Origin: an uncultured Verrucomicrobiota bacterium
GTDB taxonomy: Bacteria > Verrucomicrobiota > Kiritimatiellia > RFP12 > UBA1067
Assembly (NCBI GenBank): GCA_946610035.1
Contig: CAMOCC010000013.1
Coordinates: forward strand, 1 to 47,527
Reading direction: 5' to 3'
Length of the DNA: 47,527 nucleotides
A program made the position numbers and the translations under genes. The notes under the pieces were generated by a model, which did no database searches, was not told where the DNA came from, and saw only the letters and a program-made list of their open reading frames with translations. This document shows positions 6,164 to 27,376 of this stretch, in pieces (within the stretch, counting starts at the first letter, position 1; every line of letters begins with the position of its first letter).

Positions 6164-6277
6164 GGTGTCGCAAAAGGATATTTCCTTTGACGGCAATAGC
6201 TAACAGACGACGAGCATATTTGATATTATATTTACAGGCTCGTACAACTCCATCCAATCCAAGGAACAGGAATCGAA

Positions 6278-7498
6278 ATGAACAGAACTTCAGCGGCTCT
6301 CGCACTTATCTGGCTGGCTTCGTCCGCAGCGGCAGGCGCCTCGCCTGATGTCGACATGGGCCCAATCGAGCGGAACGCGGAGATGCTGCTGCGTTCCATG
6401 CGCGAGAACGCCCGCTCTGCCGAAGCGGAAGGGCTTCCACGGCTATTTCCGCGCACGTTTGCCGACGGGAAGGTCGTTTTCGTAGATCGCGAGGACTGGT
6501 GCGCGGGGTTCTTCCCCGGGTCGCTCTGGTTCCTCTACGAGCTGACCGGCAAGGACGAGTGGCTTGCCGCGGCGAAGGAGACCACGATGATGCTGGAGAA
6601 GTCGCGGCATCTCAAACGGACCCATGACGTCGGATTCATCCTCGCCTCCAGCTTCGGCAACGGCTGGCGCATCGCGCGCGTCCCTGGATACGACGAAGTG
6701 CTGAAGGACGGAGCGTCCGCGCTCGCGACGCGCTTCTCGCCTGCGCACGGACTCGTCAAGAGCTGGGACTGGTGGGAGACTTCGCCCTACACGTTCCCAG
6801 TCATCATCGACAACATGATGAACCTGGATCTGCTTGAAATCGCCGCTTCGATAGGCGGCGACGAGTCCTTCCGCAAAATCGCCCGCACACACGCGGCGAC
6901 AGTCAGCCGCCGTCATTTCAGGCACGACGGGACGGTGTACCATGTCCTTGACTACGACGCTTCGAGGCCAATCGTCCGCGGCATATACGCCGGACAGGGC
7001 GAAAGCGTCGACGGTGCATGGGCGCGCGGGCAGGCGTGGGCACTGTACGGCTTCACGATGATGTATCGTCATTCGCGCGACAAGGCTTTTCTCTACCGCG
7101 CTGTGAAAAGCGCCGAGGCGTGGCTTTCCGCACCGGGCATGCCAGACGACGGCGTGCCGTACTGGGATTTCAAGGCGCTTGACATCCCCAATGCGCCGCG
7201 CGACGCTTCCGCCGCGGCATGCGCCGCGTCTGGTCTCGTTGACCTGTCCGGACTTGTCTTCGGCGGCGATTCGCTCCGTTACCGCGCCGCGGCTGAGAAG
7301 ATCGTCGCGTCCCTTTCGGGCCCTTCGTATCTTGCGCGGCCAGGCGAAGCCGGAGGGTTCATTCTGCGGCATTCAACCGGGAACGCTCCGGCAGCGCACG
7401 AAGTGGATGTGCCGCTGTCCTATGCGGACTACTACTACCTTGAGGCACTTTCGAGACTTCGCAAAATCGAAAACGGGAAAATGGAGGGGACACGATGA
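6278..7498 (+). CDS. exported unsaturated glucuronyl/rhamnogalacturonyl hydrolase (GH88/GH105-like)
   Basis: FFPGSLWFLYELTG, VDGAWARGQAWALYGFTMMYR, DASAAACAASGL motifs; signal peptide. Confidence 0.85.
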   Translation: MNRTSAALALIWLASSAAAGASPDVDMGPIERNAEMLLRSMRENARSAEAEGLPRLFPRTFADGKVVFVDREDWCAGFFPGSLWFLYELTGKDEWLAAAKETTMMLEKSRHLKRTHDVGFILASSFGNGWRIARVPGYDEVLKDGASALATRFSPAHGLVKSWDWWETSPYTFPVIIDNMMNLDLLEIAASIGGDESFRKIARTHAATVSRRHFRHDGTVYHVLDYDASRPIVRGIYAGQGESVDGAWARGQAWALYGFTMMYRHSRDKAFLYRAVKSAEAWLSAPGMPDDGVPYWDFKALDIPNAPRDASAAACAASGLVDLSGLVFGGDSLRYRAAAEKIVASLSGPSYLARPGEAGGFILRHSTGNAPAAHEVDVPLSYADYYYLEALSRLRKIENGKMEGTR

Positions 7499-10400: not shown

Positions 10401-10926
10401 CCTTGGCATGGAGGAATACGCACGCGTGGAGGCGTTGGGAATTGACCTTTGGAACAGCGCGCAGGACGGCGGCAGGTGGCGCCTATACCGCCTGAACTCA
10501 CGCGGACACAACACGCTTTCCGAAAAAGGTTCGCTCCACAAGGTCGAAGCATCCGCGGTTTTGCAGTCCCTGACAGAGAGCGACGGCGCGTCGTCCGCCC
10601 TTTGGGACATGTCTGCGCTCTTTGGACGAAGCGTAACGCGCCTATTCGAGCTTGGCGCTGACGGGTCGCTGAAGCTCACGGACACGGTTGCGGAAGGGGA
10701 GCCGCTGGAGTTCACGTTCCACACTCCGGCGTCCGTCGAGAAGGACGGTCCGAATCTCGTCATGACGCTCGACGGCAGGCAGATGGTCGTCACGGCTTCG
10801 CCCGAAGTCGATTGGACCGTCGGCCCGACGCCTGTCGATCCTGCGGTTGATTCGCCGAATCCTGGCATAACGCGCGTTTCAGCCGAAGTGCGCGGGAAGG
10901 TCGAATTCACCTTTGTGCTGCGTTAA
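7495..10926 (+). CDS. fusion: GH50/agarase-like glycoside hydrolase + heparinase II/III-like polysaccharide lyase
   Basis: N-half VGRRWFLVTPEGSLFFSLGID, GFFIDNE, VGEFHFG; C-half YPEGPSYWDYGTQY, SRGHGHMDAGSFV, NSRGHNTL. Confidence 0.8.
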   Translation: MKRVFILTAAAAAAMLVCAETPVLAPGGVETVNGADISFGRVGEARLRIYTPEWDGGIRFVPRNGDSFDLSGAKYLAIDVENLSPDRQMRLTLHASAGGKATDSGDHASANFTKKRSINTGIGLNPGEKGTMKLLLPHADIYRAPEDARGLYYIDTAHISPLELKVQWPFEQPMKYLVDCRLSNLRLEGEPDVSRKIDPEKYCPFVDKYGQFKHVDWPYKMKDDKVLPKDLELELKALKSAPESWDRFGGWKDGPHLKATGHFRTARVGRRWFLVTPEGSLFFSLGIDVSRIETDIADGSKHPGWYESYDPSSPRMVFTGKTLEKKFGKKDFAQEYYDLMLKRFDSWGINTIGNWSAGDLMMLGRKPYVISVLENAKGVKMVSGNGVRFYDTADPAFPEKMKSAVRKRFAEDPALAKAATDPMCIGFFIDNELKFPGDPELLEPYFRTCREILNELAPNKLYLGCRFIGFRQSKELWAVAAKYCDVVTVNTYSNAIYNIPDDIYEKAAAEKPLLVGEFHFGCFDRGMFKAGLCPVWSQKERARSFTRFVQGALCNPRVVGCHWFQYRDQPLLGRGDGEAYEIGFVDVCDRPYPDLCRAARKVGKHMYDYRRRGKLENEMEVPVKKLPTPLSGHPRLWNEFSPSAEEMEAIRRTAAEAMAQPVSEREMEGRRLLGTARLALRRILALSAVYVADGDNAAAERAIAEMKALASFDDWNTEHFLDTAEIAFAMGMGYDALYGVMDPETRAELARAVERFAVDPALSPSRYTWWRDSSGNWNQVCHSGVVVAALAFAEWFPSKTEMLVGEAVANLPAALAVYAPNGAYPEGPSYWDYGTQYTFFLLDALRRVYGTDFGLGDAPGFKETRRFPEIVRGPSGLSFNYGDGRASPQQTLSSIYLPALVLAGASRSADGWRAPAVFRADGAVQLSVQRNGDGTAFVGVVGGPASRGHGHMDAGSFVYDAGAKRWVVDLGMEEYARVEALGIDLWNSAQDGGRWRLYRLNSRGHNTLSEKGSLHKVEASAVLQSLTESDGASSALWDMSALFGRSVTRLFELGADGSLKLTDTVAEGEPLEFTFHTPASVEKDGPNLVMTLDGRQMVVTASPEVDWTVGPTPVDPAVDSPNPGITRVSAEVRGKVEFTFVLR

Positions 10927-10956: not shown

Positions 10957-13503
10957 ATGAAGAAGGTAACTATGCTGGCCGCCGCTCTCGCAGCGACGCT
11001 TATCGCGCGCGCCGAGACGACGGTGATCGAGGCGGAGTCGTTCGAGGACTGGGGCGGCTGGGTCAACGACACCCAGTTCATGGACCAGATGGGCTCGCCG
11101 TATCTTCTCGCACACGGCATGGGCAAGCCCGTGGCCGACGCGAAGACGACGTTCGTCGCGAAGGGCGGAAAGTACAACGTCTGGGTGAGGACGAAGAACT
11201 GGACTAGTCCGTGGCATCCCGATGTCGGCGCGGGCACGTTCAAGCTTGTCGTCAACGGGAAGATGCTGCCGAACCTCCTCGGCGCGCAAGGCAAGGGCGA
11301 ATGGCTCTGGGTCAAGGCGGACGACGTGTCGCTTAAGAAGGGCAAGAACACGCTCGCGCTCCACGACCTAGACGGATTCGACGGACGCGTTGACGCGATC
11401 TGCTTTTCGACGAATCCGCAGCCGGCCAGCATTCTCAATGGACCGCGCCCTCCTTCGGTCATCGCCCAGCCCATACCTCTGCCCAAGTTCGACCTCTGCG
11501 TTGTTGGTGGCGGCATAGCGGGAATCTGCACTGCGGTTTCGGCTGCGCGACTCGGGCTTTCGGTTGCGCTCGTCCAAGACCGTCCCGTGCTCGGCGGAAA
11601 TAACTCGTCCGAGGTGCGCGTCCATCTCGGCGCGTACCAGAACCTGCCTCCCTACCCGAGGCTTGGCGACGTCCTTGCCGAGTTCGGTCCTAAGCGCGGC
11701 GGAAACGCCGAGAGCGCCGCGAACTACGAGGACGAGAGGAAGCTTGCGATAGTCAAGGCGGAGAAGAACATACGCCTCTTCCTCAACGAGCATGTGAACG
11801 GAGTTAAGACAAACGAAATGGGACGCATTCTATCTGTCCGCTCCATCAATACGAAGACTGGCGTTGCAACCAGGTTCGAGGCGACGAACTTCGTGGACTG
11901 CACGGGCGACGGAACGGTCGGGTATCTTGCAGGCGCGGACTTCCGCATGGGCCGCGAGGCGAAGGGCGAGACTGGCGAGCCGGACGCGCCCGAAAAGGCG
12001 GACATGGTCACGATGGGCGCGTCAGTCCAGTGGAATGCCGGAAAGGCGTCCGGCGACGCGGCGTTTCCGTTCAGGCCGTGGATGCTCAAGACGATCAACG
12101 AGGAGAATTGCTCTGCGCACCTCAAGGGCGACTGGTGGTGGGAGGCTGGACTCGGCCGCGACCAGATTGCGGAAGGCGAATACATTCGCGACTACGGGCT
12201 TCTCGTGGCATACTCGAACTGGGCGTTCGTCAAGAACTCTTATTCGAAGAAGGGAGACTTCGCTGACAAGGAGCTCAAGTGGGTCGCATACAACGCCGGA
12301 CGCCGCGAGTCGCGCCGGCTTCTCGGGGACTTCATCCTCGACCAGAACCACATCCGCAACAAAGATTTCCAGCCGGACGGAACGTGCGCAACGACATGGA
12401 CGATCGACCTTCACCTCCCGAAGTCGGCGGACGAATCGAAGTTCGAGGGCGAGCCGTACCAGTCCAACTCGCTCAACGAGAAGATATGGCCGTACCCCGT
12501 TCCCTACCGCTGCCTCTATTCGCGCAACGTGCCCAACCTCTTCATGGCCGGACGCGACATCTCCGTCACTCACGTGGCCCTCGGCACGACGCGGCTGATG
12601 CGCACGCATGGCATGATGGGCGAAGTCGTCGGCATGGCGGCGTCCATCTGCAAGAAGCACGGGTGCACTCCGCGCGACGTCTACACGTCGCACCTTGACG
12701 AGCTGAAGGCATTGATGACAAAAGGCGTGGGCGACGGGAAGAAGCATCCGCGGCAGGACTACAACGTGCAGGAGTCGCTGGATCCGGAGATCAAGGCGAA
12801 GCACGTCGAAAGCTCAAGACCCCTCGTGCCGGAGCTGAAGGTGCTCATGATCGGCAACAGCTTTTCGCGTCCCGTTGTGCGCACTCTTCCTGCGCTCGCA
12901 AAGTCCGCGGGTGTCAGGCTTGACATCGCAAGCCTCTACATCGGAGGGTGCTCGCTCGAACGCCACGCGAAGAACATCAGGAACGACGCAGCGGAGTACC
13001 TCATCGAGCGAAACAACGACGGCGAGCGCCTCAAAAAGGAGAAGGCGCGCATAGGAGAATGGCTTTCGATGGCGAAGTGGGACGTAGTAACCATCCAGCA
13101 GGCGAGCCATTTCAGCTGGCGTCCGGAGACGTTCGAGCCGTGGGGCGACGAAGTCATAGCCGAAATCCGCAGGCTTGCGCCGCAGGCCGAGATCGTCGTG
13201 CAGGAGACGTGGAGCTACAATGCCAATGACGGACGCCTGAAGAAAGGGCGGAAGGATTACTGGGGGTTTGGACAGGACGAGATGTACAGCCGCATACACA
13301 AGGCCGTCGGCTCGTTCGCGAAGAAGCGCGGCCTGCGCGTCATCCCCACCGGCGCGGCAATTCAGGCGGCCCGTGCGAAGGGCGGACCTGACGTCGTAGG
13401 AAACGGAGGCGACACAATCCACCTGAACAAGGCCGGCGAGAAGATACAGGCCGAGGTATGGCTCAAGACGCTGTTCGGAGCTGGCGTCGGCTCAGCCGAC
13501 TGA
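10957..13503 (+). CDS. three-part protein: CBM-like domain + FAD-dependent oxidoreductase + SGNH hydrolase (DUF4886-like)
   Basis: VVGGGIAGICTAVSAARLG and ..VLGGNNSSEVRVHLGA; C-terminal ELKVLMIGNSFSR ... GDTIHLNKAG. Confidence 0.8.
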   Translation: MKKVTMLAAALAATLIARAETTVIEAESFEDWGGWVNDTQFMDQMGSPYLLAHGMGKPVADAKTTFVAKGGKYNVWVRTKNWTSPWHPDVGAGTFKLVVNGKMLPNLLGAQGKGEWLWVKADDVSLKKGKNTLALHDLDGFDGRVDAICFSTNPQPASILNGPRPPSVIAQPIPLPKFDLCVVGGGIAGICTAVSAARLGLSVALVQDRPVLGGNNSSEVRVHLGAYQNLPPYPRLGDVLAEFGPKRGGNAESAANYEDERKLAIVKAEKNIRLFLNEHVNGVKTNEMGRILSVRSINTKTGVATRFEATNFVDCTGDGTVGYLAGADFRMGREAKGETGEPDAPEKADMVTMGASVQWNAGKASGDAAFPFRPWMLKTINEENCSAHLKGDWWWEAGLGRDQIAEGEYIRDYGLLVAYSNWAFVKNSYSKKGDFADKELKWVAYNAGRRESRRLLGDFILDQNHIRNKDFQPDGTCATTWTIDLHLPKSADESKFEGEPYQSNSLNEKIWPYPVPYRCLYSRNVPNLFMAGRDISVTHVALGTTRLMRTHGMMGEVVGMAASICKKHGCTPRDVYTSHLDELKALMTKGVGDGKKHPRQDYNVQESLDPEIKAKHVESSRPLVPELKVLMIGNSFSRPVVRTLPALAKSAGVRLDIASLYIGGCSLERHAKNIRNDAAEYLIERNNDGERLKKEKARIGEWLSMAKWDVVTIQQASHFSWRPETFEPWGDEVIAEIRRLAPQAEIVVQETWSYNANDGRLKKGRKDYWGFGQDEMYSRIHKAVGSFAKKRGLRVIPTGAAIQAARAKGGPDVVGNGGDTIHLNKAGEKIQAEVWLKTLFGAGVGSAD

Positions 13504-13520: not shown

Positions 13521-14675
13521 TCATTTTTTGCCGTTGAGCAGACTGCGGCGCCACTGCGTCATAGACATGCCCATTCGCTTCTTGAAGTAGCGCTTGAGGT
13601 ACGTGTCGGAGTCCCACCCGCACATGTTCGCTATGGGGGCGAGCATCTGGTTCGGATTGGAGAGCATGTCCAGAACGCGCTGGAAGCGGCAGTCGAGAAT
13701 CTCCTCGAGGATGCTCTTGCCGGTCGCGCGCCTGAAGCGGCGCTCGGCGGCTCGGCGTACCGGGGAAATGCAGGCCACGACCTCAGCGGCCTTCAGCCCC
13801 TCGCACGCCTTCTGCCGTATCAGCTCGACGGCCTTCTCGACGGCCGGGTCGTTGACGAGAAGCCTTCTGGAGGATTGCCTGCGGACGATGTCCTTCGGCG
13901 CATACATGCGCTCTATGCGTCCGTTGCACCTTCCCGAAAGGATGTCGTCCAGAACGCGTACGCTCATGAACCCGCCCGCGAAGAAGTCCGGCTGGACGCT
14001 TGTGATAGCCGGCGCGATGTTCTCGCAGAGGCGCTCGCTGTTGTCGATGCTTACAAGCGCATAGTCGCCAGGCATCACTAGACCGGCGTGCCGGACGGAG
14101 CGGACGACAATGTCGGCCGACTCGTCGTTCGCGGCCAGGATCGAGCATGGACACTCCTGCGCTGACAGAAACGACGAAATGTCGGCCTGAGCCTTGAGCA
14201 GGTCCTCGCGTGACCAGCCGGCGGAAAACGTTCTGTAGGACACGCCGGACTGCTCCGCAAGCTCTGAAAAACGCTCCTGCCGCCTGATGGACCAGTCCAC
14301 CGAGGTGCACCACGGGATGAAGGCGTACGATTTCGGGCGTATGCGCGAAAGCTCCCTGAACGCAATGTCGACGCAGGCCGCCGAATCGTTCTTGACGGTA
14401 TGGACGATCCTCGGCGTCTGCCTTTCGTCGCAGTCGAGATAGACGAACGGCACCGAAGGATACTTCTCGGGGGCTATCTTCCCCAGTTCGTCGTCGCAGT
14501 CGACAATGCAGCCGTCCGGCTTGAAGAAGTCCATAAAGTCGACGAAAGAGCGCTTCGTGCGCTGCATCTCGACATCCTGGACGATCCAGCCAAGATCCTT
14601 GGCGGCAGCATACACGCCCGATAGCTTCTGTTCGATCGTGTCGACCTTCTCGTCTGTCAGAAAGAGTATTTTCAT
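13521..14675 (-). CDS. XylR-like transcriptional regulator (periplasmic-binding-like domain + AraC HTH)
   Basis: N-terminal LacI/PBP-like fold (ILAANDESADIVVRSVRHAGLVMPGDYALVSIDNS); C-terminal NMCGWDSDTYLKRYFKKRMGMSMTQWRR. Confidence 0.85.
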   Translation of the reverse strand: MKILFLTDEKVDTIEQKLSGVYAAAKDLGWIVQDVEMQRTKRSFVDFMDFFKPDGCIVDCDDELGKIAPEKYPSVPFVYLDCDERQTPRIVHTVKNDSAACVDIAFRELSRIRPKSYAFIPWCTSVDWSIRRQERFSELAEQSGVSYRTFSAGWSREDLLKAQADISSFLSAQECPCSILAANDESADIVVRSVRHAGLVMPGDYALVSIDNSERLCENIAPAITSVQPDFFAGGFMSVRVLDDILSGRCNGRIERMYAPKDIVRRQSSRRLLVNDPAVEKAVELIRQKACEGLKAAEVVACISPVRRAAERRFRRATGKSILEEILDCRFQRVLDMLSNPNQMLAPIANMCGWDSDTYLKRYFKKRMGMSMTQWRRSLLNGKK

Positions 14676-14758: not shown

Positions 14759-15934
14759 TCAGGTGGCTGGGTCTGATGCGTTGGCGCTGCCTTGGTTCAG
14801 GCGGCGCCATTCGCGCATGGACATGCCGAAGCGCTGCTTGAACAGGCGCTTGAGGTAGATGTCGGAATCCCAGCCGCAAAGGTTCGCGATTGGCGCTATC
14901 GTCTGCGAGGGACGCTTCAGAAGCTCGATGACGTGTTCAAATCTTACGTCCGTGATCTCCTGGGTGATGCGCTTGCCAGTCGCATTCTTGAACTCTATCT
15001 CCGCTTGGCGCTCGGAAGTGCCGAAAGACATGACGACATCGGACGCCTTGAGTCCGTTGCAGGCCTCGCGCCGTATGAGGTCGAGTGCCGAAAGCACGCG
15101 CTTCGAATGCGCGTTGACTAGCCTCGTAGAAAGCCGCGAGGTAAGACCGAACGGATGGTAGACCTTCTTCTCTACCGGCATGCGCGGATTGTCGATCAGC
15201 TTGGCGAGCAGCGACATCGCAATGCGTCCGGCGTTGACGAAGCCTGGCCGGACACTTGAAAGCGAGGGCCTAAGGTTGTCGCAGACCACTGGATCGTCGT
15301 CTACGCCGACTATGAACATATCGCCGGGAATCCGTATCCCGTCCGTCGTGCAGATGTCGAGGACCGTCGCGGCAAAATCGTCGTTCGCGGCAAAAATGCC
15401 GCACGGACGCGGGAGCTCTGCCAGGAAGGGGCGAGACATCGTGGCGAGCATCGTCTTGTCGTAGAACGTCGACGTGTCGTTCATGACTGAAAAGGGTCGG
15501 TTCATTCGCTTGAGCAGTTCGCAGAACCTCTCCTGGCGTCTATAGCTCCATGCGATGTGCTTGTCCCAGCCGAGGAAGGCAAAGTGCTTGCAGCCTGTCT
15601 TGACCAGTTCGGCGACTGCAAGGTCCGCAATCTGCCTGTTGTCGCTGGAGACGGTGAAGGCGTGCGGCGACGATAACACGCTTTCGGAGGGATCAAGATG
15701 CACAAGCGGCACGTCGGCGTAGGCCGACGTGTCCGACATGTTGTTGCCGGAGTCGTCGAGAATGCATCCGGCCGGCGCCCAGTATCGAATAACCTTTTCG
15801 ATTGGATCCTCTATGCGCGAGGTTTCGATTTCCTCGATGTGGTAGCCGAGATGCGAGCAGACTTCGCGCGCCCCGGCGAGCTTGTGGACTCGCGAGCCTG
15901 AGAGCATGTCTATTATGAAAAGTATCGTCTTCAT
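14759..15934 (-). CDS. XylR-like transcriptional regulator, paralog of 13521..14675
   Basis: Same architecture; C-terminal NLCGWDSDIYLKRLFKQRFGMSMREWRR. Confidence 0.85.
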   Translation of the reverse strand: MKTILFIIDMLSGSRVHKLAGAREVCSHLGYHIEEIETSRIEDPIEKVIRYWAPAGCILDDSGNNMSDTSAYADVPLVHLDPSESVLSSPHAFTVSSDNRQIADLAVAELVKTGCKHFAFLGWDKHIAWSYRRQERFCELLKRMNRPFSVMNDTSTFYDKTMLATMSRPFLAELPRPCGIFAANDDFAATVLDICTTDGIRIPGDMFIVGVDDDPVVCDNLRPSLSSVRPGFVNAGRIAMSLLAKLIDNPRMPVEKKVYHPFGLTSRLSTRLVNAHSKRVLSALDLIRREACNGLKASDVVMSFGTSERQAEIEFKNATGKRITQEITDVRFEHVIELLKRPSQTIAPIANLCGWDSDIYLKRLFKQRFGMSMREWRRLNQGSANASDPAT

Positions 15935-15997
15935 CTGTCTTATCTTATTTATGCCAGTATTCTAGCACATGCAGTCTTCCATGCGCAAGCGGAAAAA

Positions 15998-16057
15998 TTC
16001 GGTTTTGGTTTGGTGATTGCTTCGGTTTTGGGAAGTTTTTCTTGAGCAAAGTATATT
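15998..16057 (+). promoter_or_regulatory. candidate activator-dependent promoter: direct repeats TTCGGTTTTGG (15998-16008, 16021-16031) plus TATATT (16052-16057)
   Basis: Same layout as 20496-20555. Confidence 0.65.
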
Positions 16058-16118
16058 AGAATGTATGATGTCAGAGGGAGATGAGGTGTCTCCCCTAAAA
16101 CGAAAAAGGAGAAAGGCG

Positions 16119-18674
16119 TTGAAGCAGGACATCATCAAGCGATCCTTTTTTGCGATGGCAGGAGCCATCGCGTTTTCCGCTACGGCTGCCGATTACTTCG
16201 TCAGCCCCGACGGCAGCAATGCCAACGCCGGCACGTCCGCAGGCGCACCATTTGCGACGATCGACAAGGCCGTTTCGTCCGCCCACGCCAACGACATTAT
16301 CCACGTCGCGCCCGGCGACTATTCAACGACGGCGCAGTGGGGTCCGAACCTCACCGCGCGCCTTGTCGGCGAAGGCTCGTCGCGATCGGACGTCGTGATC
16401 CGCTCCTCGGGGACGTACCGCACGCTGCGGATGGCCGCCGGCTCGCGCGTGGAGAACGTGACGATCATAGGCGAAGGAACCGGCAAGGCGGACAAGGGCG
16501 GCGCAATCGAGATGTACGGCGGGGTGCTTACGAACTGCACGATCAGCGGCGGCTATGCAGTCAACGGATCAAACGGCCCTGAAGGCGGCAACCTGTATGT
16601 CGCAGGATCTTCGCTCGTCGTCGACTGCGCAATCAGCGGAGGCAAGGCGTCCAGGCGGGGCGGCAACGTGTTCCTTGACGGCGGTACCGTTCGAGGCTGC
16701 ACGATTTCCGACGGGGTGATCACGTCAAACAACGGACGCGGCTCCAACGTTCATGTAAACGGAAACGCTCTTTTGTCGGGATGCCGCCTTGCCGGCGGAA
16801 CGAACAGCGCTTCATATAACGGCGGAAGCCTCTGCATGTACAACACGTCCGCCGTCGTCGAGAATTGCCTCGTGACGTCGAGTGGTTGCGGCGGTGTGCT
16901 TCTCGAGAGGACGGCAAACGTCTACAACTGCACAATCGTCGCGAACGAAAAATACGGCGTCTGGGCATGGTCCGCGTCGCAGCACGTCTTCAACACAGTC
17001 GTCTACGGCAACAAGAATGGCTCGAACGTCGCCGAGTGGAACGGGGACATGCCAAGCGGTTCGTCATGCGATTTCAGAAACTGCGCATTGTCGTCCAACA
17101 ACGGACGCTTTGCCGCCGGTTCGTATCCTGGCCTGGCGCTTATATCCAGTAGCTATGCATTTGTCGACTACACGCACGGCGTATATTCTCCGTCGTCCAA
17201 TGGCTCGCTTGAGGACGCTGGCACGCCCGACCCTCGCGGCGATGCAGCATCGCCATCGGACATCGCGGGGAACGCTCGCGTATGCGGGAATATCGACATC
17301 GGATGCTACGAGCGCGGGAAGCCCGAATTTGCGGTGCATATCGACGGAACGGTATACGGCGGCAGCTACGCTCCTGCATCAGTTGCATTTTCGCACTACG
17401 CCGAGAATTCCGCGTCGCCGGAGAAGGTGCGCTTCACGTATAACTTCGGCGACGGATCTGCGACGAGCACTACGGGCGAAGGGACGATTTCTCATTCGTA
17501 TGCAACTCCGGGCGTCTATACTGTCCGCGTAACTGCGACCAACCCTTGCGAAGACGACGAGGAAGACGTGGAGGTCGTCTATGCAGACCTTGTACGCGTC
17601 GGTTCGCAGACGATTTACGTAAATCCGAATTCCGGCGGCGGTTCGTTCCCGTACAACACCCCGCAGTCCGGCTATTCATCCCTCAAGACTGCCGTCGAGG
17701 ATGCCGTAGACGGACAGCAGCTGCTTCTCGCCTCAGGCGTACACTACACCGCAGATCAAATCCCTGTTGCAAAGGCGCTGACAATTCGCGGTCTTGGTGC
17801 TACGCCTGAGGCGGTTATTATTCGCAACACGACAACGACGCCGGATTCATACTACTACCGCACAATGGAGGTGGACAACGCCGGCGCGCGGATAGAGAAC
17901 GTCACGCTTGAGAACGGATGCGTGAAGAACCAGTTCGGCGGCAACCTGCGACTCGTACAAGGTGTCGTGTCCAACTGCGTCATCAGAGGCGGACGCGCGG
18001 TCGCCAACAACGGAAATGCAGGTGGAGGCGGAGTGGAGCTTGCCGGCGCCGCGACGCTTACGCACTGCGTCGTATCGAACAACCTTGTCCAGGGGACGTC
18101 CAACGGCGGCGCGTATGCCGGCGGGGCGGTCGCGGTTCAGTACAATGCGAAGAACGGACGCATCTCGAATTGCCTGATTGTCCGCAACACGTACACGACA
18201 AGCGGAAGCGTCAAGGCCGGCGCGGCGGGAATACGGTTCTGCGGAAGCAACGACAACACCCAGATCGAGAACAACACCATTGCTGGAAACGTCGTCGAGG
18301 GATCGCTTTCGGATGATTCGGCGGGCGTCCACTGCACGACATGGTACGGACGGCTTCGCAACAACATCATCGTCGGCAACTACGAGACGGGCAAGCAGCG
18401 ATACACGTCGATTAAAATGGACTATGCGCACGGCACGTACATTACCAACCTAACGGACGACGAATCAACGCCTACGCAGGTTTTCAGAAACTTCAACGCT
18501 GACGATTTCGACATCAAAGCGGGGTCGCTCGCCTACAACACCGGCACATTGAGCGGACTCGTCTTGACTCCTTCCGTCGACATCGCGGGAAATCCACGCT
18601 GCATGTTCAACGCGATTGATGTCGGTTGCTACGAATCATCACGCCGCGCAGGCTCGGTGCTTGCATTTCGCTAA
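16119..18674 (+). CDS. exported right-handed beta-helix repeat protein with PKD domain (TTG start)
   Basis: In-frame TTG at 16119 with AAGGAG at 16106-16111 gives LKQDIIKRSFFAMAGAIAFSATAADYFV, aligning with MKQLFSKRSLAAIAAS.. of 20612; repeated NCxIxGG coils; PKD (FTYNFGDG...YATPGVYTVRVTA). Confidence 0.8.
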   Translation: MKQDIIKRSFFAMAGAIAFSATAADYFVSPDGSNANAGTSAGAPFATIDKAVSSAHANDIIHVAPGDYSTTAQWGPNLTARLVGEGSSRSDVVIRSSGTYRTLRMAAGSRVENVTIIGEGTGKADKGGAIEMYGGVLTNCTISGGYAVNGSNGPEGGNLYVAGSSLVVDCAISGGKASRRGGNVFLDGGTVRGCTISDGVITSNNGRGSNVHVNGNALLSGCRLAGGTNSASYNGGSLCMYNTSAVVENCLVTSSGCGGVLLERTANVYNCTIVANEKYGVWAWSASQHVFNTVVYGNKNGSNVAEWNGDMPSGSSCDFRNCALSSNNGRFAAGSYPGLALISSSYAFVDYTHGVYSPSSNGSLEDAGTPDPRGDAASPSDIAGNARVCGNIDIGCYERGKPEFAVHIDGTVYGGSYAPASVAFSHYAENSASPEKVRFTYNFGDGSATSTTGEGTISHSYATPGVYTVRVTATNPCEDDEEDVEVVYADLVRVGSQTIYVNPNSGGGSFPYNTPQSGYSSLKTAVEDAVDGQQLLLASGVHYTADQIPVAKALTIRGLGATPEAVIIRNTTTTPDSYYYRTMEVDNAGARIENVTLENGCVKNQFGGNLRLVQGVVSNCVIRGGRAVANNGNAGGGGVELAGAATLTHCVVSNNLVQGTSNGGAYAGGAVAVQYNAKNGRISNCLIVRNTYTTSGSVKAGAAGIRFCGSNDNTQIENNTIAGNVVEGSLSDDSAGVHCTTWYGRLRNNIIVGNYETGKQRYTSIKMDYAHGTYITNLTDDESTPTQVFRNFNADDFDIKAGSLAYNTGTLSGLVLTPSVDIAGNPRCMFNAIDVGCYESSRRAGSVLAFR

Positions 18675-18691
18675 CTCCAAAACACATCCCA

Positions 18692-20473
18692 ATGAAAAGC
18701 AAAATAGCAGTCGCAGTTGCCGTCGCAGTCTCATTGCCGTCCTTCGCCGGCGAACTATCCCTTGCAAGCAACCGCGTTGAGGCAGTATGGAGCGGAAGGC
18801 TCACGTACGAATCCGACACGTCGCTCGTCCTAAAGAGCTCCAGTGCTGAATATTCGTCGGGCTTCCGGCTTCTGCCTCCCCCGGGGAAGACGTCCTTCGA
18901 CCTTTCTGCGGGAAGGTACATCGCAGTCGACATGGAGGGACTTGCAAACCACCAGCAGCGCATTTGTCTGCAGATCAAGGACGCAGGAGGGGAGGCATAC
19001 GTCGGCGCCGCGCTGAACGAAGGCGAGAAGGTGACGGTCAAGCTTCCGCTTCCGCACGACTTCATCTATTCGTCGCCATCGGGCGCGAAAGGCGTCCGTA
19101 CGATGGACACGCACCACATAACGAACATAGCGTTTATGGTGGTCTGGCCGTACGAGGGACAGTTCAACGGACTCATCCACTGCCGCATATCCAACATAAG
19201 GCTTTCGGGCACGCCTGACTACAAGCGTCACGTAGCGGAATCTGCATATCTTCCGTTTGTCGACCAATACGGACAGTTCAGGCATTCCTCGTGGAAGGGC
19301 AAGGTGATGACGGACGACGATCTCCGGGCGGAACTTACGCGCGAGGACGCGCAGCTCCAGAGTGCGCCTTCGTCGTGGGACCAGTACGGCGGCTGGGCGA
19401 ACGGTCCGCAGTTGACGGCGACAGGGCATTTCCGGACGCAGAAGGTCAACGGCAAGTGGTGGCTTGTTACGCCGTCTGGACATCTATTCTATTCGCTTGG
19501 CATCAATGTCATCAAAACCGACAGCGATGCGCCAAATGGCACGTTGCATCCAGACTGGTATGAAAGCGCCGCGAAGTCCGCGATGTCCTTTCCGACGTGG
19601 AACCTGCAGAAGAAGTTCAACAAGACCAATTTCAAGTCCGACTACTATCAGTTCGTCCTTCGCCGCCTGAATTCGTGGGGAATCAACACAATCGGCAACT
19701 GGTCCGACGGCGCGCTGACGAACCTTGGGCAAAAGCCATACGTAATGACGATTGTCTCGAAGCCGTCGGGGCTTCCATATTTGTCGGGTGGATTCTACAA
19801 CACGCTCGACAGCACCTTCGCGCAGAAGATGAAAAATGCGGTGGCGGCCGCTGTCGCAGTTAGCGGGTCGTCTGCCTCGATTGCCGTGAACGATCCGATG
19901 TGCATTGGATTTTTCATCGACAACGAATTGACATTCCCGAACGACAGCGCGTACTACGAGCCTTACTTCAAGGCGTGCAAGGAGGCGATTGCCGCGGTCG
20001 CGCCGAACAAGCTGTATCTCGGTTGCCGCTTCAAGGGGCTTCGCAACGGCGATGCGCTTTGGAACGCGGCGGCTGCCTGGTGCGACGTCGTTTCCGCGAA
20101 TTCGTACGTGAGCAGCGTCGCGGTCCATGCGCAGGGTTCATACGCCGCGCCTAACATTGACCGCCCGATAATGCACACGGAGTTCCACTACGGGACGCTT
20201 CAGCGCGGAATGTTCTCGGGCGGGCTTTGTCCCGTCAGCGACCAATGCGAGCGCGGACGCAGCTATCGTCGTGTCGTCGAGGGTGCGCTCAGGCATCCGC
20301 TGTTCGTCGGCTCGCATTGGTTCCAGTACCGCGACCAGCCGATCGTCGGACGCGGCGACGGCGAGAATTACCAGATTGGTTTCATCGACGTCTGCGACCG
20401 GGCGTATCCCCAGCTCACGTCTGCTGTCCGCAGTATCGCCGAGACGATGTACAATACGCGGTTCTCGAACTGA
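18692..20473 (+). CDS. exported GH50/agarase-like glycoside hydrolase
   Basis: MKSKIAVAVAVAVSLPSFAG signal; VNGKWWLVTPSGHLFYSLGIN, GFFIDNE, TEFHYG. Confidence 0.8.
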   Translation: MKSKIAVAVAVAVSLPSFAGELSLASNRVEAVWSGRLTYESDTSLVLKSSSAEYSSGFRLLPPPGKTSFDLSAGRYIAVDMEGLANHQQRICLQIKDAGGEAYVGAALNEGEKVTVKLPLPHDFIYSSPSGAKGVRTMDTHHITNIAFMVVWPYEGQFNGLIHCRISNIRLSGTPDYKRHVAESAYLPFVDQYGQFRHSSWKGKVMTDDDLRAELTREDAQLQSAPSSWDQYGGWANGPQLTATGHFRTQKVNGKWWLVTPSGHLFYSLGINVIKTDSDAPNGTLHPDWYESAAKSAMSFPTWNLQKKFNKTNFKSDYYQFVLRRLNSWGINTIGNWSDGALTNLGQKPYVMTIVSKPSGLPYLSGGFYNTLDSTFAQKMKNAVAAAVAVSGSSASIAVNDPMCIGFFIDNELTFPNDSAYYEPYFKACKEAIAAVAPNKLYLGCRFKGLRNGDALWNAAAAWCDVVSANSYVSSVAVHAQGSYAAPNIDRPIMHTEFHYGTLQRGMFSGGLCPVSDQCERGRSYRRVVEGALRHPLFVGSHWFQYRDQPIVGRGDGENYQIGFIDVCDRAYPQLTSAVRSIAETMYNTRFSN

Positions 20474-20495
20474 GGTGGACTCATGTCTTAGAATC

Positions 20496-20555
20496 TTCGG
20501 TTTTGGTTAACTCATTGCTTCGGTTTAGGTAAGTTATTGCCTCCTAGGCTATGAT
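20496..20555 (+). promoter_or_regulatory. candidate activator-dependent promoter: direct repeats TTCGGTTTTGG / TTCGGTTTAGG (20496-20506, 20519-20529) plus TATGAT (20550-20555)
   Basis: Same 23-bp repeat spacing and same distance to -10 as 15998-16057. Confidence 0.65.
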
Positions 20556-20611
20556 AAAATTTAAAATGTCAGCAGGGGACATTTCGTTCCCGCATAACAA
20601 GGAGGACAAAA

Positions 20612-23290
20612 ATGAAGCAGTTATTCAGCAAGCGATCACTCGCCGCCATCGCGGCATCCGTCGCGCTATGCGCAACAGCAACTGACTATTACGTCAATGC
20701 GACAACTGGTAATGACGACTTGAGCGAACATGACGGCCAGTCCTGGGAAGCCGCCTTTGCTACAATTGACTGCGCAGTAACTAACACAACCGAATCTACT
20801 GATATAATCCATGTCGCTGCTGGCACTTATCCTACAACAACCCAATGGGGACCCAATCTTAAGGCGAAGCTAATTGGCGAGGGTGCAACTCGCGACGACG
20901 TTATAATCCAATCTGCGGGAACATATCGCACGCTCCGCATGGCAGCGGGCTCGTGGCTCGAGAACGTCACGGTCGTAGGCGAAGGCACATATCAGGCCAA
21001 CAAGGGCGGCGCGATCGAGATGTCGGGCGGCACTGTCACGAACTGCGTCGTCCGCGACGGCACTGCAAAGAACGACTCTGGCAACACCGAGGGCGGAAAT
21101 CTCTATGTCAGCGGCTCGTCGCTCGTCGTGGACTGCGTCATTTCCGGCGGCCACGCCACTAAGCGCGGCGGAAACGTCTATCTCGACGCCGGCATGGTCC
21201 GCGACTGCACGATCACCGGCGGAATAAGCGACAACGTCGGCGGCAACGTCTACCAGTACCAGGGCACTCTCGCCAACTGTACGATTTCCGGAGGTACTTC
21301 TGTCAATGACGGCGGAAATGTTCGCATGAACGGCGGCGGTGTGATGCAGGATTGCGTAATATCAAGCGGAACAAACACGGCAACTTCAGGCGATAAGAAG
21401 GGTGCCAATGTTTATATTGATTCCACGGCTAAAATGTCACGCTGTCGTTTGACTGGAGGCGTTCATGAGTCATATAATGGCGGTAGCCTTTGCGTTTATA
21501 GTTCGACAGCAGTTGTTGAGGACTGCCTCGTAGAAGATAGCAATTGCGGTGGCGTTCTATTGGGTAGCGCTTCATATCTTTACAATTGCTCAATTGTGAA
21601 TAACCGTGAGTATGGTTGCTGGTCGTGGAATAAGGCACAACATCTCTTCAATGTGATCGTTTTTGGTAATGACAGTGAATGGAATGGTGAGCTCCCTATA
21701 AACCAGTCGGCTGAGATAGTGAGTTGTGCTTCGTCGGGTTCGTCGCGTCTCGTTACTGATGGCGATTTTAATGTTGTTTCTATTGGCACCACTGATTTTG
21801 CTGACTATGCAAATGGTGACTATACTCCTGCAAGCGAAGCGCTTATTGACGCCGGTACGTCTGATCCTCGTGGCGCAAGCGCGTCGACGACAGACCTTGC
21901 TGGAAATCCGCGTCTTAGCGGCACCGTTGACATTGGCTGCTACGAGTACCAGAAGACCGAGCTCGTAGTTCGCATTGACAGTGCAACGCCGTCGCCTGTG
22001 TACGCGCCTTCCGTTGTGACGTTCCAGCACACCGCAGAGAATTCTGAAACTCAGGTGACGTTCACCTATGACTTCGGCGACAATTCGGAAGAGGAGACAA
22101 CGGTTGAATCGTCCATAACCCACACCTATCAGAATCCTGGTGTCTATACCGTTACGATTACCGCGTCGAATGGACAGGATGAACCGGCCACGATGGTTTA
22201 TAACAATCATGTCCAGATTGCATCAACCACAATCTATGTTACGCCAGGCAATGGTTCTGGTACATTCCCCTACAACACACCTGAATCGGGTTTCGGCAAC
22301 TTCAAGTCTGCGGTTCAGTATGCGGCGGATGGCTACACTCTTCTCCTCGGTGAGGGCGTCCACGAAACTGTTGACCAGGTTTCGTTCAATAAGGCTCTGA
22401 CGATTCGCGGTCTTGGCGCAACTCCTGAAGCGGCGATTGTCCGTAACACCACGGAAACACCGAACATCTACTATCATCGCACGATGGAAGTTAATAACGC
22501 TAATGCGTGGGTTGAAAACATCACGATCGAGAACGGCTGCGTGAAGAACCAGTTCGGCGGCAACCTCCGACTCGTCACCGGCGTGGTGTCCAACTGCGTC
22601 ATCCGTGGCGGCCTGGCGGTGGCCGACAACGGAAACGCCGGCGGGGCTGGCGTTGAGCTTGCAGGCGCGGGGATCCTCACGCACTGCGTGATATCGAACA
22701 ACACGGTCCGGGGCTCGTCCAACAGCGGCAGCTACGCGGGCGGCGCGATAACCGTTCAGTACAACGCGAAGAACGGACGCGTATCCAACTGCCTTGTCGC
22801 GTACAACACCTACGAGACCTCGGGCGACGCTAAGGCCGGCGCGGCGGGAATCAGGTTCTGCGGCAGCAACGACAACACGGCGATAGAGAACTGCACGATT
22901 GTCGCTAATACTGTAGAAGGATCTCTTGCAGACGATTCGGCAGGCATCTACTGCACGACCTGGTACGGACGCCTCCGCAACAACATCATCGTCGGCAACT
23001 ATGAGACCGGCAAGAATAAGTATACTTCTATCAAGATGGATACTGGTCATGGAACGTATGTGAACTGCATTGATGATCCGCTCGCGTACTCAGTGTTCAA
23101 GAACTACGCCAATGGCGATTTCCGCCTGTCGCCGAATGGCGCTGCGTACAACAGGGGCACGACTGAAGGACTTGCGCTTCTTCCTGCGGTGGACCTTGGC
23201 GGCGGCGATCGCGTCAAGTTCTCAGACAAGATCGACATTGGCTGCTACGAGAGCCAGAACAGGCCGGGTTTCGTCATGGTGATGCGCTGA
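20612..23290 (+). CDS. exported right-handed beta-helix repeat protein with PKD domain
   Basis: SD AAGGAGG; NCxISGG coils; PKD FTYDFGDNSEEETT...YQNPGVYTVTITA; paralog of 16119..18674. Confidence 0.85.
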   Translation: MKQLFSKRSLAAIAASVALCATATDYYVNATTGNDDLSEHDGQSWEAAFATIDCAVTNTTESTDIIHVAAGTYPTTTQWGPNLKAKLIGEGATRDDVIIQSAGTYRTLRMAAGSWLENVTVVGEGTYQANKGGAIEMSGGTVTNCVVRDGTAKNDSGNTEGGNLYVSGSSLVVDCVISGGHATKRGGNVYLDAGMVRDCTITGGISDNVGGNVYQYQGTLANCTISGGTSVNDGGNVRMNGGGVMQDCVISSGTNTATSGDKKGANVYIDSTAKMSRCRLTGGVHESYNGGSLCVYSSTAVVEDCLVEDSNCGGVLLGSASYLYNCSIVNNREYGCWSWNKAQHLFNVIVFGNDSEWNGELPINQSAEIVSCASSGSSRLVTDGDFNVVSIGTTDFADYANGDYTPASEALIDAGTSDPRGASASTTDLAGNPRLSGTVDIGCYEYQKTELVVRIDSATPSPVYAPSVVTFQHTAENSETQVTFTYDFGDNSEEETTVESSITHTYQNPGVYTVTITASNGQDEPATMVYNNHVQIASTTIYVTPGNGSGTFPYNTPESGFGNFKSAVQYAADGYTLLLGEGVHETVDQVSFNKALTIRGLGATPEAAIVRNTTETPNIYYHRTMEVNNANAWVENITIENGCVKNQFGGNLRLVTGVVSNCVIRGGLAVADNGNAGGAGVELAGAGILTHCVISNNTVRGSSNSGSYAGGAITVQYNAKNGRVSNCLVAYNTYETSGDAKAGAAGIRFCGSNDNTAIENCTIVANTVEGSLADDSAGIYCTTWYGRLRNNIIVGNYETGKNKYTSIKMDTGHGTYVNCIDDPLAYSVFKNYANGDFRLSPNGAAYNRGTTEGLALLPAVDLGGGDRVKFSDKIDIGCYESQNRPGFVMVMR

Positions 23291-23314: not shown

Positions 23315-25165
23315 ATGCGTAAAATCTTCTTGATCGCGAGTCTGGCGCTGCTCGGCGGCGCGGGCGCATACGCGGTGACCCTCAGCGATTTCCATCCCGT
23401 CTACAAAGCGCAGATGGAGCGCGAAGGCGACAACGTCGTCCGCGTCAAGTTCCCGAGCGCCGAATGGGGCACCGGCATCAAGTGGGAGTCGAAGAAGGGC
23501 GCGGACTTCTCCAGCGCCAAGTGGCTCTCCGTCGATGTCGAGAACCTCTCGTCCAAGCGCCAGTCGCGCCTGACGATGCACGTCTCCGCAGGCGCGGCGG
23601 ACGGCGATTCGGGCGACCACGCCGTCGCGATCGAGAAGAAGAACAGGTCCGTCAACACTGGTGTCGGACTCAACCCTCACGAAAAGCGGACGATGCGCCT
23701 CCTCCTTACGCATCCCGCCATATACGGCGCGCCCGAAAACGGGCGCGGTCCGTATGTCATCGACACGTCCCACGTGACCTCCATCCACTTCCAGATGCAG
23801 TGGCCATACGAGGACGAAGTCGACGATCTCGCCGATCTGCGCATCTCGAACCTCCGCCTTGAAGGCGAAGTCGACGCTGCTCGGCACGTCGACCCCGACA
23901 AGTATTTCCCGTTCATCGACAAGTACGGACAGTTCGCCCACGCCGACTGGCGCTTCAAGGTGAAGGACGACGCGACGCTCAAGAAGGACCTTGCGGCCGA
24001 GCTTCAGCGCCTCAAGCCCGCGCCCGAAACATGGGATTCCTTCGGCGGCTGGAAGGACGGTCCGACGCTCAAGGCGACAGGCAGCTTCCGCACCGAGAAG
24101 GTCAACGGAAAGTGGTGGCTGGTGACTCCCGAAGGACACCTCTTCTTTTCCGTCGGACTCGACGTCACACGCACGATGACTGACATCACCGACGGCTCCA
24201 AGCACCCCGACTGGTACGAGACAAAGGTGCCGGCCGACGGCAAGATGCCTTTTACTCTCTGGAACCTAGAAAAGAAGTTCGGCAAGAAGGACTATGCCGA
24301 CGAATACTACGACTTCGTCTTGAAGCGCTTCGACTCGTGGGGACTCAACTCTATCGGCAACTGGAGCGCGCCCGAACTCTACCTCAAGTCCAGGAAACCA
24401 TACGCTCTCTCCGTCCTTGAGCGCGCAAAGGGCGTCAAGCGCATGACGAAGTTCCACCTTTACGACTTCTCCGACCCCAACTTCGAGCGCAACATGCGCG
24501 CCGCAATCCGCGAAAGATTTGCAAAGGAACCCGCGCTCGCGCACGCCGCAAAGGACCCGATGTGCATCGGCTTCTTCATCGACAACGAACTTCAGTTCCA
24601 CCGCTGGATCCCCGACGTCGGAGAAGGGCGCGCTGCGGCGTCCGTCGATCTCTACTTCCGCATCTGCCGCGAGGAGCTTAACCGCCTCGCGCCCGGCAAG
24701 CTCTACCTCGGCAGCCGCTTCGTCGGATTCCGCCAGCCCGGCATCCTCTGGCGCACTGCGGCGAAGTACTGTGACGTCATAACCGTCAACGCCTACGGCA
24801 ACTCGGTCTACAACATCTCCAAGAAGATCTTCCCGAAGGGCGTCGAAAAGCCGATCATGATCGGCGAGTTCCACTACGGCTGCTACGACCGCGGCATGTT
24901 CAAGCCAGGCCTTGCGCCGGTCTGCGACCAGCTGGAGCGCGCCCGCAGCTTCACGCGCTTCGTCGAGGGCTGCCTCCAGCATCCGCTCTTCGTCGGCTGC
25001 CACTGGTTCCAGTACCGCGACCAGCCTCTGCTCGGACGCGGCGACGGCGAGGCGTATCAGATCGGGTTCGTCGACGTCTGCGACAGGCCCTATCCGGAGC
25101 TGTGCCGCGCCGCGCGCAAGCTCGGCGGCGAGATCTACGAGAAGCGTTCCAAGGGCGTTTGGTAA
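23315..25165 (+). CDS. exported GH50/agarase-like glycoside hydrolase
   Basis: VNGKWWLVTPEGHLFFSVGLD, GFFIDNE, IGEFHYG; paralog of 18692..20473 and of the N-half of 7495..10926. Confidence 0.8.
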   Translation: MRKIFLIASLALLGGAGAYAVTLSDFHPVYKAQMEREGDNVVRVKFPSAEWGTGIKWESKKGADFSSAKWLSVDVENLSSKRQSRLTMHVSAGAADGDSGDHAVAIEKKNRSVNTGVGLNPHEKRTMRLLLTHPAIYGAPENGRGPYVIDTSHVTSIHFQMQWPYEDEVDDLADLRISNLRLEGEVDAARHVDPDKYFPFIDKYGQFAHADWRFKVKDDATLKKDLAAELQRLKPAPETWDSFGGWKDGPTLKATGSFRTEKVNGKWWLVTPEGHLFFSVGLDVTRTMTDITDGSKHPDWYETKVPADGKMPFTLWNLEKKFGKKDYADEYYDFVLKRFDSWGLNSIGNWSAPELYLKSRKPYALSVLERAKGVKRMTKFHLYDFSDPNFERNMRAAIRERFAKEPALAHAAKDPMCIGFFIDNELQFHRWIPDVGEGRAAASVDLYFRICREELNRLAPGKLYLGSRFVGFRQPGILWRTAAKYCDVITVNAYGNSVYNISKKIFPKGVEKPIMIGEFHYGCYDRGMFKPGLAPVCDQLERARSFTRFVEGCLQHPLFVGCHWFQYRDQPLLGRGDGEAYQIGFVDVCDRPYPELCRAARKLGGEIYEKRSKGVW

Positions 25166-25186: not shown

Positions 25187-27376
25187 ATGTATTGCAGAAA
25201 ATTGATAACGGCAGTCTCAATTGCCGCGGCAGGGCTATCCGCTGCGGCGCTTACGGACGTGGAGATCGACGAACTCCTCTCGCGCATGACGCTGGAGGAG
25301 AAGGTCGGACAGATGGTCCAGGTCAGCTCCGGCGGCAAAAGTGCCGCGGAAGCCGAAGACGGAAGCGGACGCAAGATCGACGCTGTTCTTGCCGGACAAA
25401 TCCGCAATGGCGAGATTGGAAGCCTGCTTGGCGCGTGCGGAGTAAAGAACTTCAACGCCTTCCAGAAGATCGCCGTCGAGGAGTCGCGCCTTGGCATTCC
25501 ACTGATGGTCGGCCACGACATGATCCACGGCGTCTTCACCCAGCTCCCGATTCCGCTCGCGCTCAGCTGCGCGTGGGACGAGGAACTCTGGCGCAAGGGC
25601 GGCGAGCTGATAGCACGCGAGACTCCGCTCAAGGGCGCGAACTGGACCTTTACTCCGATGGTCGACATCTCGCGCGATCCCCGCTGGGGACGCATCGCCG
25701 AGAGCGCTGGACAGGACGCGCTCGTCGCATCGCGCATGAGCGCCGCGCTCGTCAGGGGCGTCCAGACGAAGGACGTCGCACATCCCATCGCCGCGTGCCT
25801 CAAGCACTTCGTCGGCTACGGCGCCGCGATGTCCGGACGCGACTACAACGAAGTCGAGATGAGCGAGTCGACGCTCAGGAACGTCTATCTTCCGCCTTTC
25901 GCTGCCGGCATCGACGCGGGCGCACTCACGGTCATGCCCGCGTTCCACACGTTCAACGGCGTGCCGTGCAGCGTAAACAAGTGGCTCCTCTCCGACATAC
26001 TTCGCGGCGAACTCGGCTTCAAGGGCATGACGATTTCCGACTACAACGCCGTTGGCGAGTGCGCCTGGCCTGACCACCATGGCGTTGCAGACGGAGACGA
26101 GTCCGTTTCCGCAATGGCCGTTGCCGCGGGGATGGATCAGGACATGATGGCGGAATCTTATATGAAGACGCTCGCCTCGGCCGTAAAGAAGGGCCTTGTC
26201 CCCGAAAAGGCAGTTGACGGCTGCGTCCGCAACATCCTCCGCGTGAAGAACGCCCTCGGACTCTTCGAAAAGCCCTACATCGACGAGGCCGCCGCAAAGG
26301 CGGGCGTCGACTGGAAGGCGGACGCTGCGCTTGCGCGCGAGGCCGCCGCCAGGTCGGCTGTCCTGCTCAAGAACAACGGCGCACTGCCGCTCAAGCCCGG
26401 GATTAAGGTCGCGCTTGTCGGACCTGGTGCTGACGATCTCTGGCACACCGTAGGCTGCTGGGCGACGTGGGCCGAGAACACGAGCAATCCGACGCTTGTC
26501 GACGGACTCAAGGCCGACGGCGTTGACTTCAAGTACGTCAAGGCCTACGGGTTCAGAGGCGGCAAGGTAGATGTTGCGGCAATACAGTCCGCCGCCGCCA
26601 GCGCAGATGTCGTCATCGCATGCTTCGGCGAGCAGGGACGCGACGCCGGCGAAAACAACAGCCGCATGGACCTGTCGCTTCCCAAGGTCCAGCTTGACGC
26701 AATCGACGCGATCAAGGCGACCGGCAAGCCGTTCGTCGCAGTGCTCATGAACGGAAGGCCGCTGGCCATCCCAGAGCTCGCCGAGGCTGCGGACGCGATA
26801 CTGGAGGCGTGGAACCCGGGCACCAGCGGAGGCTGGGGCATTGCGGACGTCCTCACAGGTCGCATTAACCCTTCGGGCCGCCTCACGACCGAGTTTCCAT
26901 ACGCTACGGGACAGTGTCCGCTTTACTACAACAAAACGCGCACGGGACGTCCGCACAAGGAAGGCGAACGCTGGACCACGCGCTATATCGACGGCCCCTA
27001 CGGCGCGCTTTATCCCTTCGGCTACGGCTTGACCTATACTACGTTCGAGTATTCGGACGAGAAGGTCGTAGTTGATGGAGACAAGCTCGTCTTCACGGCG
27101 AAGATACGCAACACTGGTTCGCGCGAAGGCGTAGAAACGGTTCAGGCGTACACGCGTCAGCTCGTCGCCGTCGAGTCGCGTCCAGTCCGCGAACTGCGCG
27201 GATGGAAGCGCGTGGCGCTCGCGCCAGGCGAGGAGTCCGTCGTCGCAATCGAAGTGCCGCTCGCGAACCTCGACTACTGGGCCGCCTCGCGCAAGGTCGC
27301 GGCCTCGGGCGAGTTCGAGGCTTGGATCGCCCCCGATTCCACAAAGGGCAGGAAACTTGGATTCGCGATTAAGTAA
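25187..27376 (+). CDS. GH3 beta-glucosidase-like glycoside hydrolase
   Basis: MTLEEKVGQM; KHFVGYGA; GFKGMTISDYNAVGE; FGYGLTYTTFEYS; fibronectin-III-like tail. Confidence 0.9.
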   Translation: MYCRKLITAVSIAAAGLSAAALTDVEIDELLSRMTLEEKVGQMVQVSSGGKSAAEAEDGSGRKIDAVLAGQIRNGEIGSLLGACGVKNFNAFQKIAVEESRLGIPLMVGHDMIHGVFTQLPIPLALSCAWDEELWRKGGELIARETPLKGANWTFTPMVDISRDPRWGRIAESAGQDALVASRMSAALVRGVQTKDVAHPIAACLKHFVGYGAAMSGRDYNEVEMSESTLRNVYLPPFAAGIDAGALTVMPAFHTFNGVPCSVNKWLLSDILRGELGFKGMTISDYNAVGECAWPDHHGVADGDESVSAMAVAAGMDQDMMAESYMKTLASAVKKGLVPEKAVDGCVRNILRVKNALGLFEKPYIDEAAAKAGVDWKADAALAREAAARSAVLLKNNGALPLKPGIKVALVGPGADDLWHTVGCWATWAENTSNPTLVDGLKADGVDFKYVKAYGFRGGKVDVAAIQSAAASADVVIACFGEQGRDAGENNSRMDLSLPKVQLDAIDAIKATGKPFVAVLMNGRPLAIPELAEAADAILEAWNPGTSGGWGIADVLTGRINPSGRLTTEFPYATGQCPLYYNKTRTGRPHKEGERWTTRYIDGPYGALYPFGYGLTYTTFEYSDEKVVVDGDKLVFTAKIRNTGSREGVETVQAYTRQLVAVESRPVRELRGWKRVALAPGEESVVAIEVPLANLDYWAASRKVAASGEFEAWIAPDSTKGRKLGFAIK

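Follow-up and report, generated by a model that had tools for sequence, protein, structure and literature searches.

A conserved direct-repeat pair as the very probable operator of a XylR-like regulator at two polysaccharide-degrading operons of an uncultured rumen bacterium

In an uncultured bacterium from the rumen, two operons for polysaccharide degradation bear the same pair of short repeats, and this pair is very probably the landing site of a sugar-sensing regulator encoded next door. Both pairs had been pointed out in an earlier note on this DNA and reading the sequence directly confirmed that they are present, each with a distance of 23 bp from start to start (Table 1). In the window, i.e., the whole stretch of 47,527 nucleotides that was analyzed, there are four exact half-site copies, and these are exactly the members of pairs A and B. 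The paired pattern with up to three mismatches occurs twice in the metagenome-assembled genome (3.03 Mb), as pair A and pair B, and a reversed-pattern control yielded no match in the whole genome at the same tolerance. The genome-wide scan thus did not reveal a motif that is widespread without relation to carbohydrate genes. The motif had also been reported as absent upstream of 6278, 27479 and 30038, and this proved correct. A search for direct repeats upstream of 27479 and in the gap between the two regulator genes r1 and r2 gave nothing convincing, and the gene at 27479 has an ordinary-looking promoter (TTGCAA-16-TATAAT). Single half-sites were also tried as a means of finding operators and were discarded as uninformative, because their number (21 in the window with up to two mismatches vs. 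17.9 expected) is at chance level.

Table 1. Positions of regulator genes, operons and predicted promoter elements in the window
Feature	Position	Strand	Description
Regulator r2	13521..14675	-	Second XylR-like regulator, 36% identical to r1
Regulator r1	14759..15934	-	Peripla_BP_3 sensor and AraC-type HTH_18; XylR-like; divergent from pair A
Candidate own extended -10 of r1	15959..15964	-	TGC TAGAAT; 33 bp from half-site 1
Half-site 1, operator A	15998..16008	+	TTCGGTTTTGG; conserved across 14 aligned promoters
Half-site 2, operator A	16021..16031	+	TTCGGTTTTGG; 23 bp after half-site 1
Corrected -10, promoter A	16057..16062	+	TAGAAT, no TGn; spaced 25 bp from half-site 2, like its counterparts in relatives
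Operon A, gene 1	16119..18674	+	Beta-helix-like/PKD protein; signal-like N-terminus; TTG start
Operon A, gene 2	18626..20473	+	GH50-like (beta-agarase-like); 43% identical to 23315-25165
Half-site 1, operator B	20496..20506	+	TTCGGTTTTGG
Half-site 2, operator B	20519..20529	+	TTCGGTTTAGG
Extended -10, promoter B	20552..20560	+	TGA TAAAAT; no mismatches to family promoter pattern
-10 hexamer, promoter B	20555..20560	+	TAAAAT
Operon B, gene 1	20612..23290	+	Beta-helix-like/PKD protein; 55% identical to 16119-18674
Operon B, gene 2	23315..25165	+	GH50-like; matches Aga50D 4BQ2 (GH50 beta-agarase), E 2e-70
Operon B, probably last gene	25187..27376	+	GH3; same order in G054
Tentative r2-type operator and -10, before 6278 operon	6167..6222	+	GTCGCAAAAGG / GACGGCAATAG, 22 bp apart, then TGA TATTAT

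The regulator r1 combines an N-terminal periplasmic-binding-protein-like sensor domain (Peripla_BP_3, E 1.8e-25) with a C-terminal AraC-type double helix-turn-helix (HTH_18, E 6.8e-13, and also HTH_AraC), and resembles the solved XylR structures 4FE4/4FE7 across both domains (residues 46-381/391, E 2e-31). The neighboring enzymes are GH50-like, GH3 and GH2 proteins, a set that does not suggest a xylose operon. A regulator with 99% identity to r1 is present in Lentisphaerae bacterium SIG88, and the more distant matches stem from Kiritimatiellae or Verrucomicrobia, several of them from ruminant guts.

We consider it highly probable that r1 uses each TTCGGTTTTGG pair as its operator, for ligand-controlled activation by a dimer on the direct repeat. 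The sites with their spacing, the revised -10 boxes, the surrounding genes and the conservation were observed directly; binding of r1, its arrangement as a dimer, activation rather than repression and the ligand are what we infer from sequence. An r1 dimer would occupy the two directly repeated half-sites with one AraC-type DNA-binding domain each, and the LacI-type sensor would bind a ligand, which is presumably a sugar or oligosaccharide derived from the target glycan. In ligand-bound r1, the promoter-proximal subunit would contact RNA polymerase at a target promoter that has a -10 box, often an extended one, and no -35 box, and in this way both operons, 16119-20473 and 20612 onwards, would be turned on. 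As operator A resides in the divergent gap, r1 may act on its own gene too. A likely extended -10 box of r1 is found on the minus strand and r1 orthologues feature an extended -10 at a similar distance on the r1 side, so that self-regulation of r1 is possible.

Conservation across genomes speaks for r1 as the owner of the pair. In 13 genomes the pair resides in the divergent gap beside an r1 orthologue (44-99% identity), and the gene on the other side is usually of the beta-helix type. A search of 96 relatives with up to two mismatches recovered the pair in nine genomes, every one from the same genus, and most matches were located beside the best r1 orthologues. In G054, G014, G050, G004, G008, G011, G003 and G032 it occupies the intergenic region that separates r1 from the divergent operon, always with 23 bp spacing, and G098 is a further genome with the pair in the gap of the r1 orthologue. 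Every genome of the genus that encodes an r1-type regulator, 11 in total, contains the pair, as opposed to three weak matches among the 50 others (Fisher p 9e-10); the 11 include G045, in which the pair and an r1-type gene fragment are found at the termini of two separate contigs. Ownership by r1 was then tested out of sample by scanning 288 genomes of the class, and the three hits beyond the genus (G170, G306, G307) are all located beside a 53% identical r1 orthologue. In G170 and G306, the two cases in which the other side is readable, the pair faces a beta-helix gene. The weak matches in G017, G049, G052 and G032:C6 were set aside as background, the genomes having no r1-like gene or the match being poor.

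Where the first gene downstream is readable, it encodes a beta-helix or a GH50-containing protein after 17 of 18 pairs. These 17 comprise G098:C1:19101, whose truncated downstream gene was counted in because it has the same N-terminus as the GH50-containing G003 gene. The only exception is found in G045 (L066, G045:C148), where the pair is located at a contig end and the downstream gene encodes a protein of 1009 aa unrelated to beta-helix or GH50 proteins. A further r1-type pair is present at a contig end in G014:C194 (L065 6338-6475). G000, G003, G032 and G098 each contain two or three such operons; control of more than one operon by a single regulator therefore appears to be common.

The earlier note had proposed the motif as an activator-type operator for one or both regulators, and the conservation across species and genera strongly supports this for r1 and not for r2. 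That the pair is the operator of r2, or of both proteins, appears improbable to us, even if r2 adjoins, has the same domains and shares 36% identity, such that its helix-turn-helix could read a related site: The best r2 orthologues (56% identity in G009, 58% in G020) occur in genomes without the pair and are themselves preceded by gaps with GTCGCAAATGG-type sites, and a close r2 is missing from most of the genomes that do bear the pair. The tentative r2-type operator upstream of 6278 reaches a weak family-model score of 19.4, and this at a spacing of 22 instead of 23 bp. It could also be argued that the beta-helix/GH50 module was duplicated in tandem and that the motif was merely inherited and has no function. 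The modules are indeed paralogous, with 55% and 43% protein identity, and yet this explanation is hardly credible. The half-sites are 91-100% identical, whereas identity amounts to 25% in the 60 bp upstream and to 45% in the stretch to the -10 box, and the pair was kept where the regulator has diverged to 44-53% identity and most of the promoter has changed. Furthermore, both pairs persist in G054, 355 bp apart, although the first beta-helix/GH50 module is lost there except for a fragment covering residues 528-613 of the first beta-helix protein (G054:C70, L056 11255-11760), an arrangement that may be an assembly error.

The promoters downstream of the pairs have a common architecture. As -10 boxes, the earlier note had suggested TATATT (16052-16057) and TATGAT (20550-20555), which do start after 20-bp gaps, but the conserved -10 box lies 5 bp further downstream in both cases. 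In relatives, site 2 and the -10 box are separated by 24-25 bp and the latter usually reads TGnTAnAnT. In the near-identical genome G054 the TATATT box reads TTTATT and TAGAAT is kept. Among 14 aligned r1-type promoters, the half-sites make up the best-conserved columns: When aligned on the half-sites, information content is 1.70 bits per column in half-site 1 and 1.66 in half-site 2, while the spacer reaches 0.81 and the preceding 30 bp reach 0.22. Relative to the transcription start, half-site 1 is predicted at about -71 to -61 and half-site 2 at about -48 to -38. A recognizable -35 box had been stated to be lacking, and promoters A and B indeed contain no TTGACA-like hexamer. The sites had further been described as overlapping the -35 region; with the corrected -10 box, site 2 abuts the hexamer rather than overlapping it. 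Thus, the promoters feature two directly repeated half-sites held at a constant distance of about two helical turns (23 bp in all r1 promoters identified), and a proximal half-site that abuts a weak or absent -35 box.

LacI-type sensors are common in repressors and operator A is situated between divergent promoters, which both lend something to the notion that r1 acts chiefly as a repressor, or represses in the ligand-free and activates in the ligand-bound state, as does AraC at araBAD. We nevertheless regard such a role as unlikely, since site 2 immediately precedes the RNA polymerase at a promoter devoid of a -35 box, where activators act, since the distance to the -10 box is held at 24-25 bp and since the scan of the 3.03-Mb genome showed no additional distant pair that could serve looping. 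The predicted 5' untranslated regions (16069-16118 and 20567-20611) are short and start with TGTCAG, common to both operons. Each contains a hairpin of 6-7 bp just before the ribosome-binding site (-11.9 and -10.9 kcal/mol), with differing stems (GGGAGAT...GTCTCCC vs. GGGGAC...GTTCCC). Two G014 promoters retain TGTCRGCAGGGGAC.

Activation by r1 from the repeat pair would have several parallels in known systems. E. coli XylR is the nearest characterized relative and, like r1, consists of a LacI/GalR-type sensor followed by an AraC-type DNA-binding domain, with similarity over most of the length, and the E. coli xylA/xylF control region is divergent like that of operator A. In the E. coli xylA-xylF gap, whose geometry we computed from the genome sequence itself, candidate repeats of both promoters are 21 bp apart, as opposed to strictly 23 bp here; in this A-rich sequence, a score of 9/12 is likewise reached at spacings of 20, 25 and 27 bp. 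Half-site sequence and targets (beta-helix, GH50-like, GH3) differ from those of E. coli XylR as well. XylRA, encoded in the beta-1,3-xylan locus of Vibrio sp. EA2, is a XylR-type activator that acts on several promoters of one polysaccharide locus via two direct repeats resembling XylR sites, as shown by EMSA; according to its authors, E. coli XylR uses direct repeats as well (PMC12125979). XylRA differs from r1 by AT-rich half-sites, xylose as the ligand and a different phylum. At araBAD, AraC likewise occupies tandem half-sites, I1-I2, the proximal one next to the -35 box, with I2 at -51 to -35 (PMC11434276) compared with about -48 to -38 here. AraC has an unrelated arabinose-binding sensor domain, and a looping site like that of AraC was not found in our genome scan. 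In the open-licence literature searched, we found no published XylR operators of Kiritimatiellae or Verrucomicrobia. What differs from known direct-repeat XylR sites is the 23-bp spacing and a spelling that varies by paralogue.

Rumen Kiritimatiellae contain many XylR-like regulators per genome. The upstream gaps of 118 such regulators from these genomes were collected, of which 97 were left at 85% identity. A profile-free count of direct repeats (at least 9/11 identical positions, spacings 12 to 45) found a repeat at exactly 23 bp in 30 of the 97 gaps and in 0-4 at every other spacing. Upon exclusion of the r1 clade, 24 of 90 non-redundant sisters still had a repeat at 23 bp, and other spacings had a mean of 0.97 and a maximum of 4. 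In a leave-one-out profile scan, 53 of 95 regulators exceeded the 99% shuffle level at spacing 23, with high scores also at 22 and 24 because the half-site profile tolerates a slip of 1 bp; the profile-free count is therefore the cleaner evidence. A differently spelled pair in the same 23-bp layout is hence present in a quarter to a half of the sister regulators. The sister half-sites vary by regulator, align to T-K-C-G-S-W-W-W-N-G-G and mostly read TTCGCAAAnGG. An extended -10 box, which was not used in the alignment, becomes apparent 33-41 bp downstream of where site 2 begins, at around 36 bp.

Half-site spelling is CGGTTT for r1-type regulators and mostly CGCAAA for the others. Recognition helix 1 contains S/T-E-R in all r1-type regulators checked and S-R-R in most others, and regulators with R at this position mostly have other half-sites. 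This fits the E/R residue as a candidate specificity residue, in a contrast that is confounded by ancestry because it coincides with one clade. On balance, we lean towards the view that the XylR-like regulators of rumen Kiritimatiellae follow one rigid promoter grammar in which the half-site spelling is particular to each regulator and dictated by its recognition helices, and that they may thus constitute a sizeable collection of mutually insulated sugar switches with regulons readable from sequence. The paralogous sensor-operator pairs are seemingly distinct from each other, and with a fixed layout beside the regulator gene each orphan regulator offers a testable regulon prediction in organisms that are uncultivable.

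Elsewhere in the locus, one protein (7495-10926, 1143 aa) appears to be a fusion in which the N-terminal half (residues ~15-613) is related to the GH50-like proteins and the C-terminal part matches Hepar_II_III_C. In another (10957-13503, 848 aa), an FAD_oxidored domain is fused to DUF4886. The beta-helix protein 20612-23290 is 78% identical to its counterpart in G054 (L056 11726-14461) and the neighboring genes share 97-99%, suggestive of rapid change or recombination in the second beta-helix gene.
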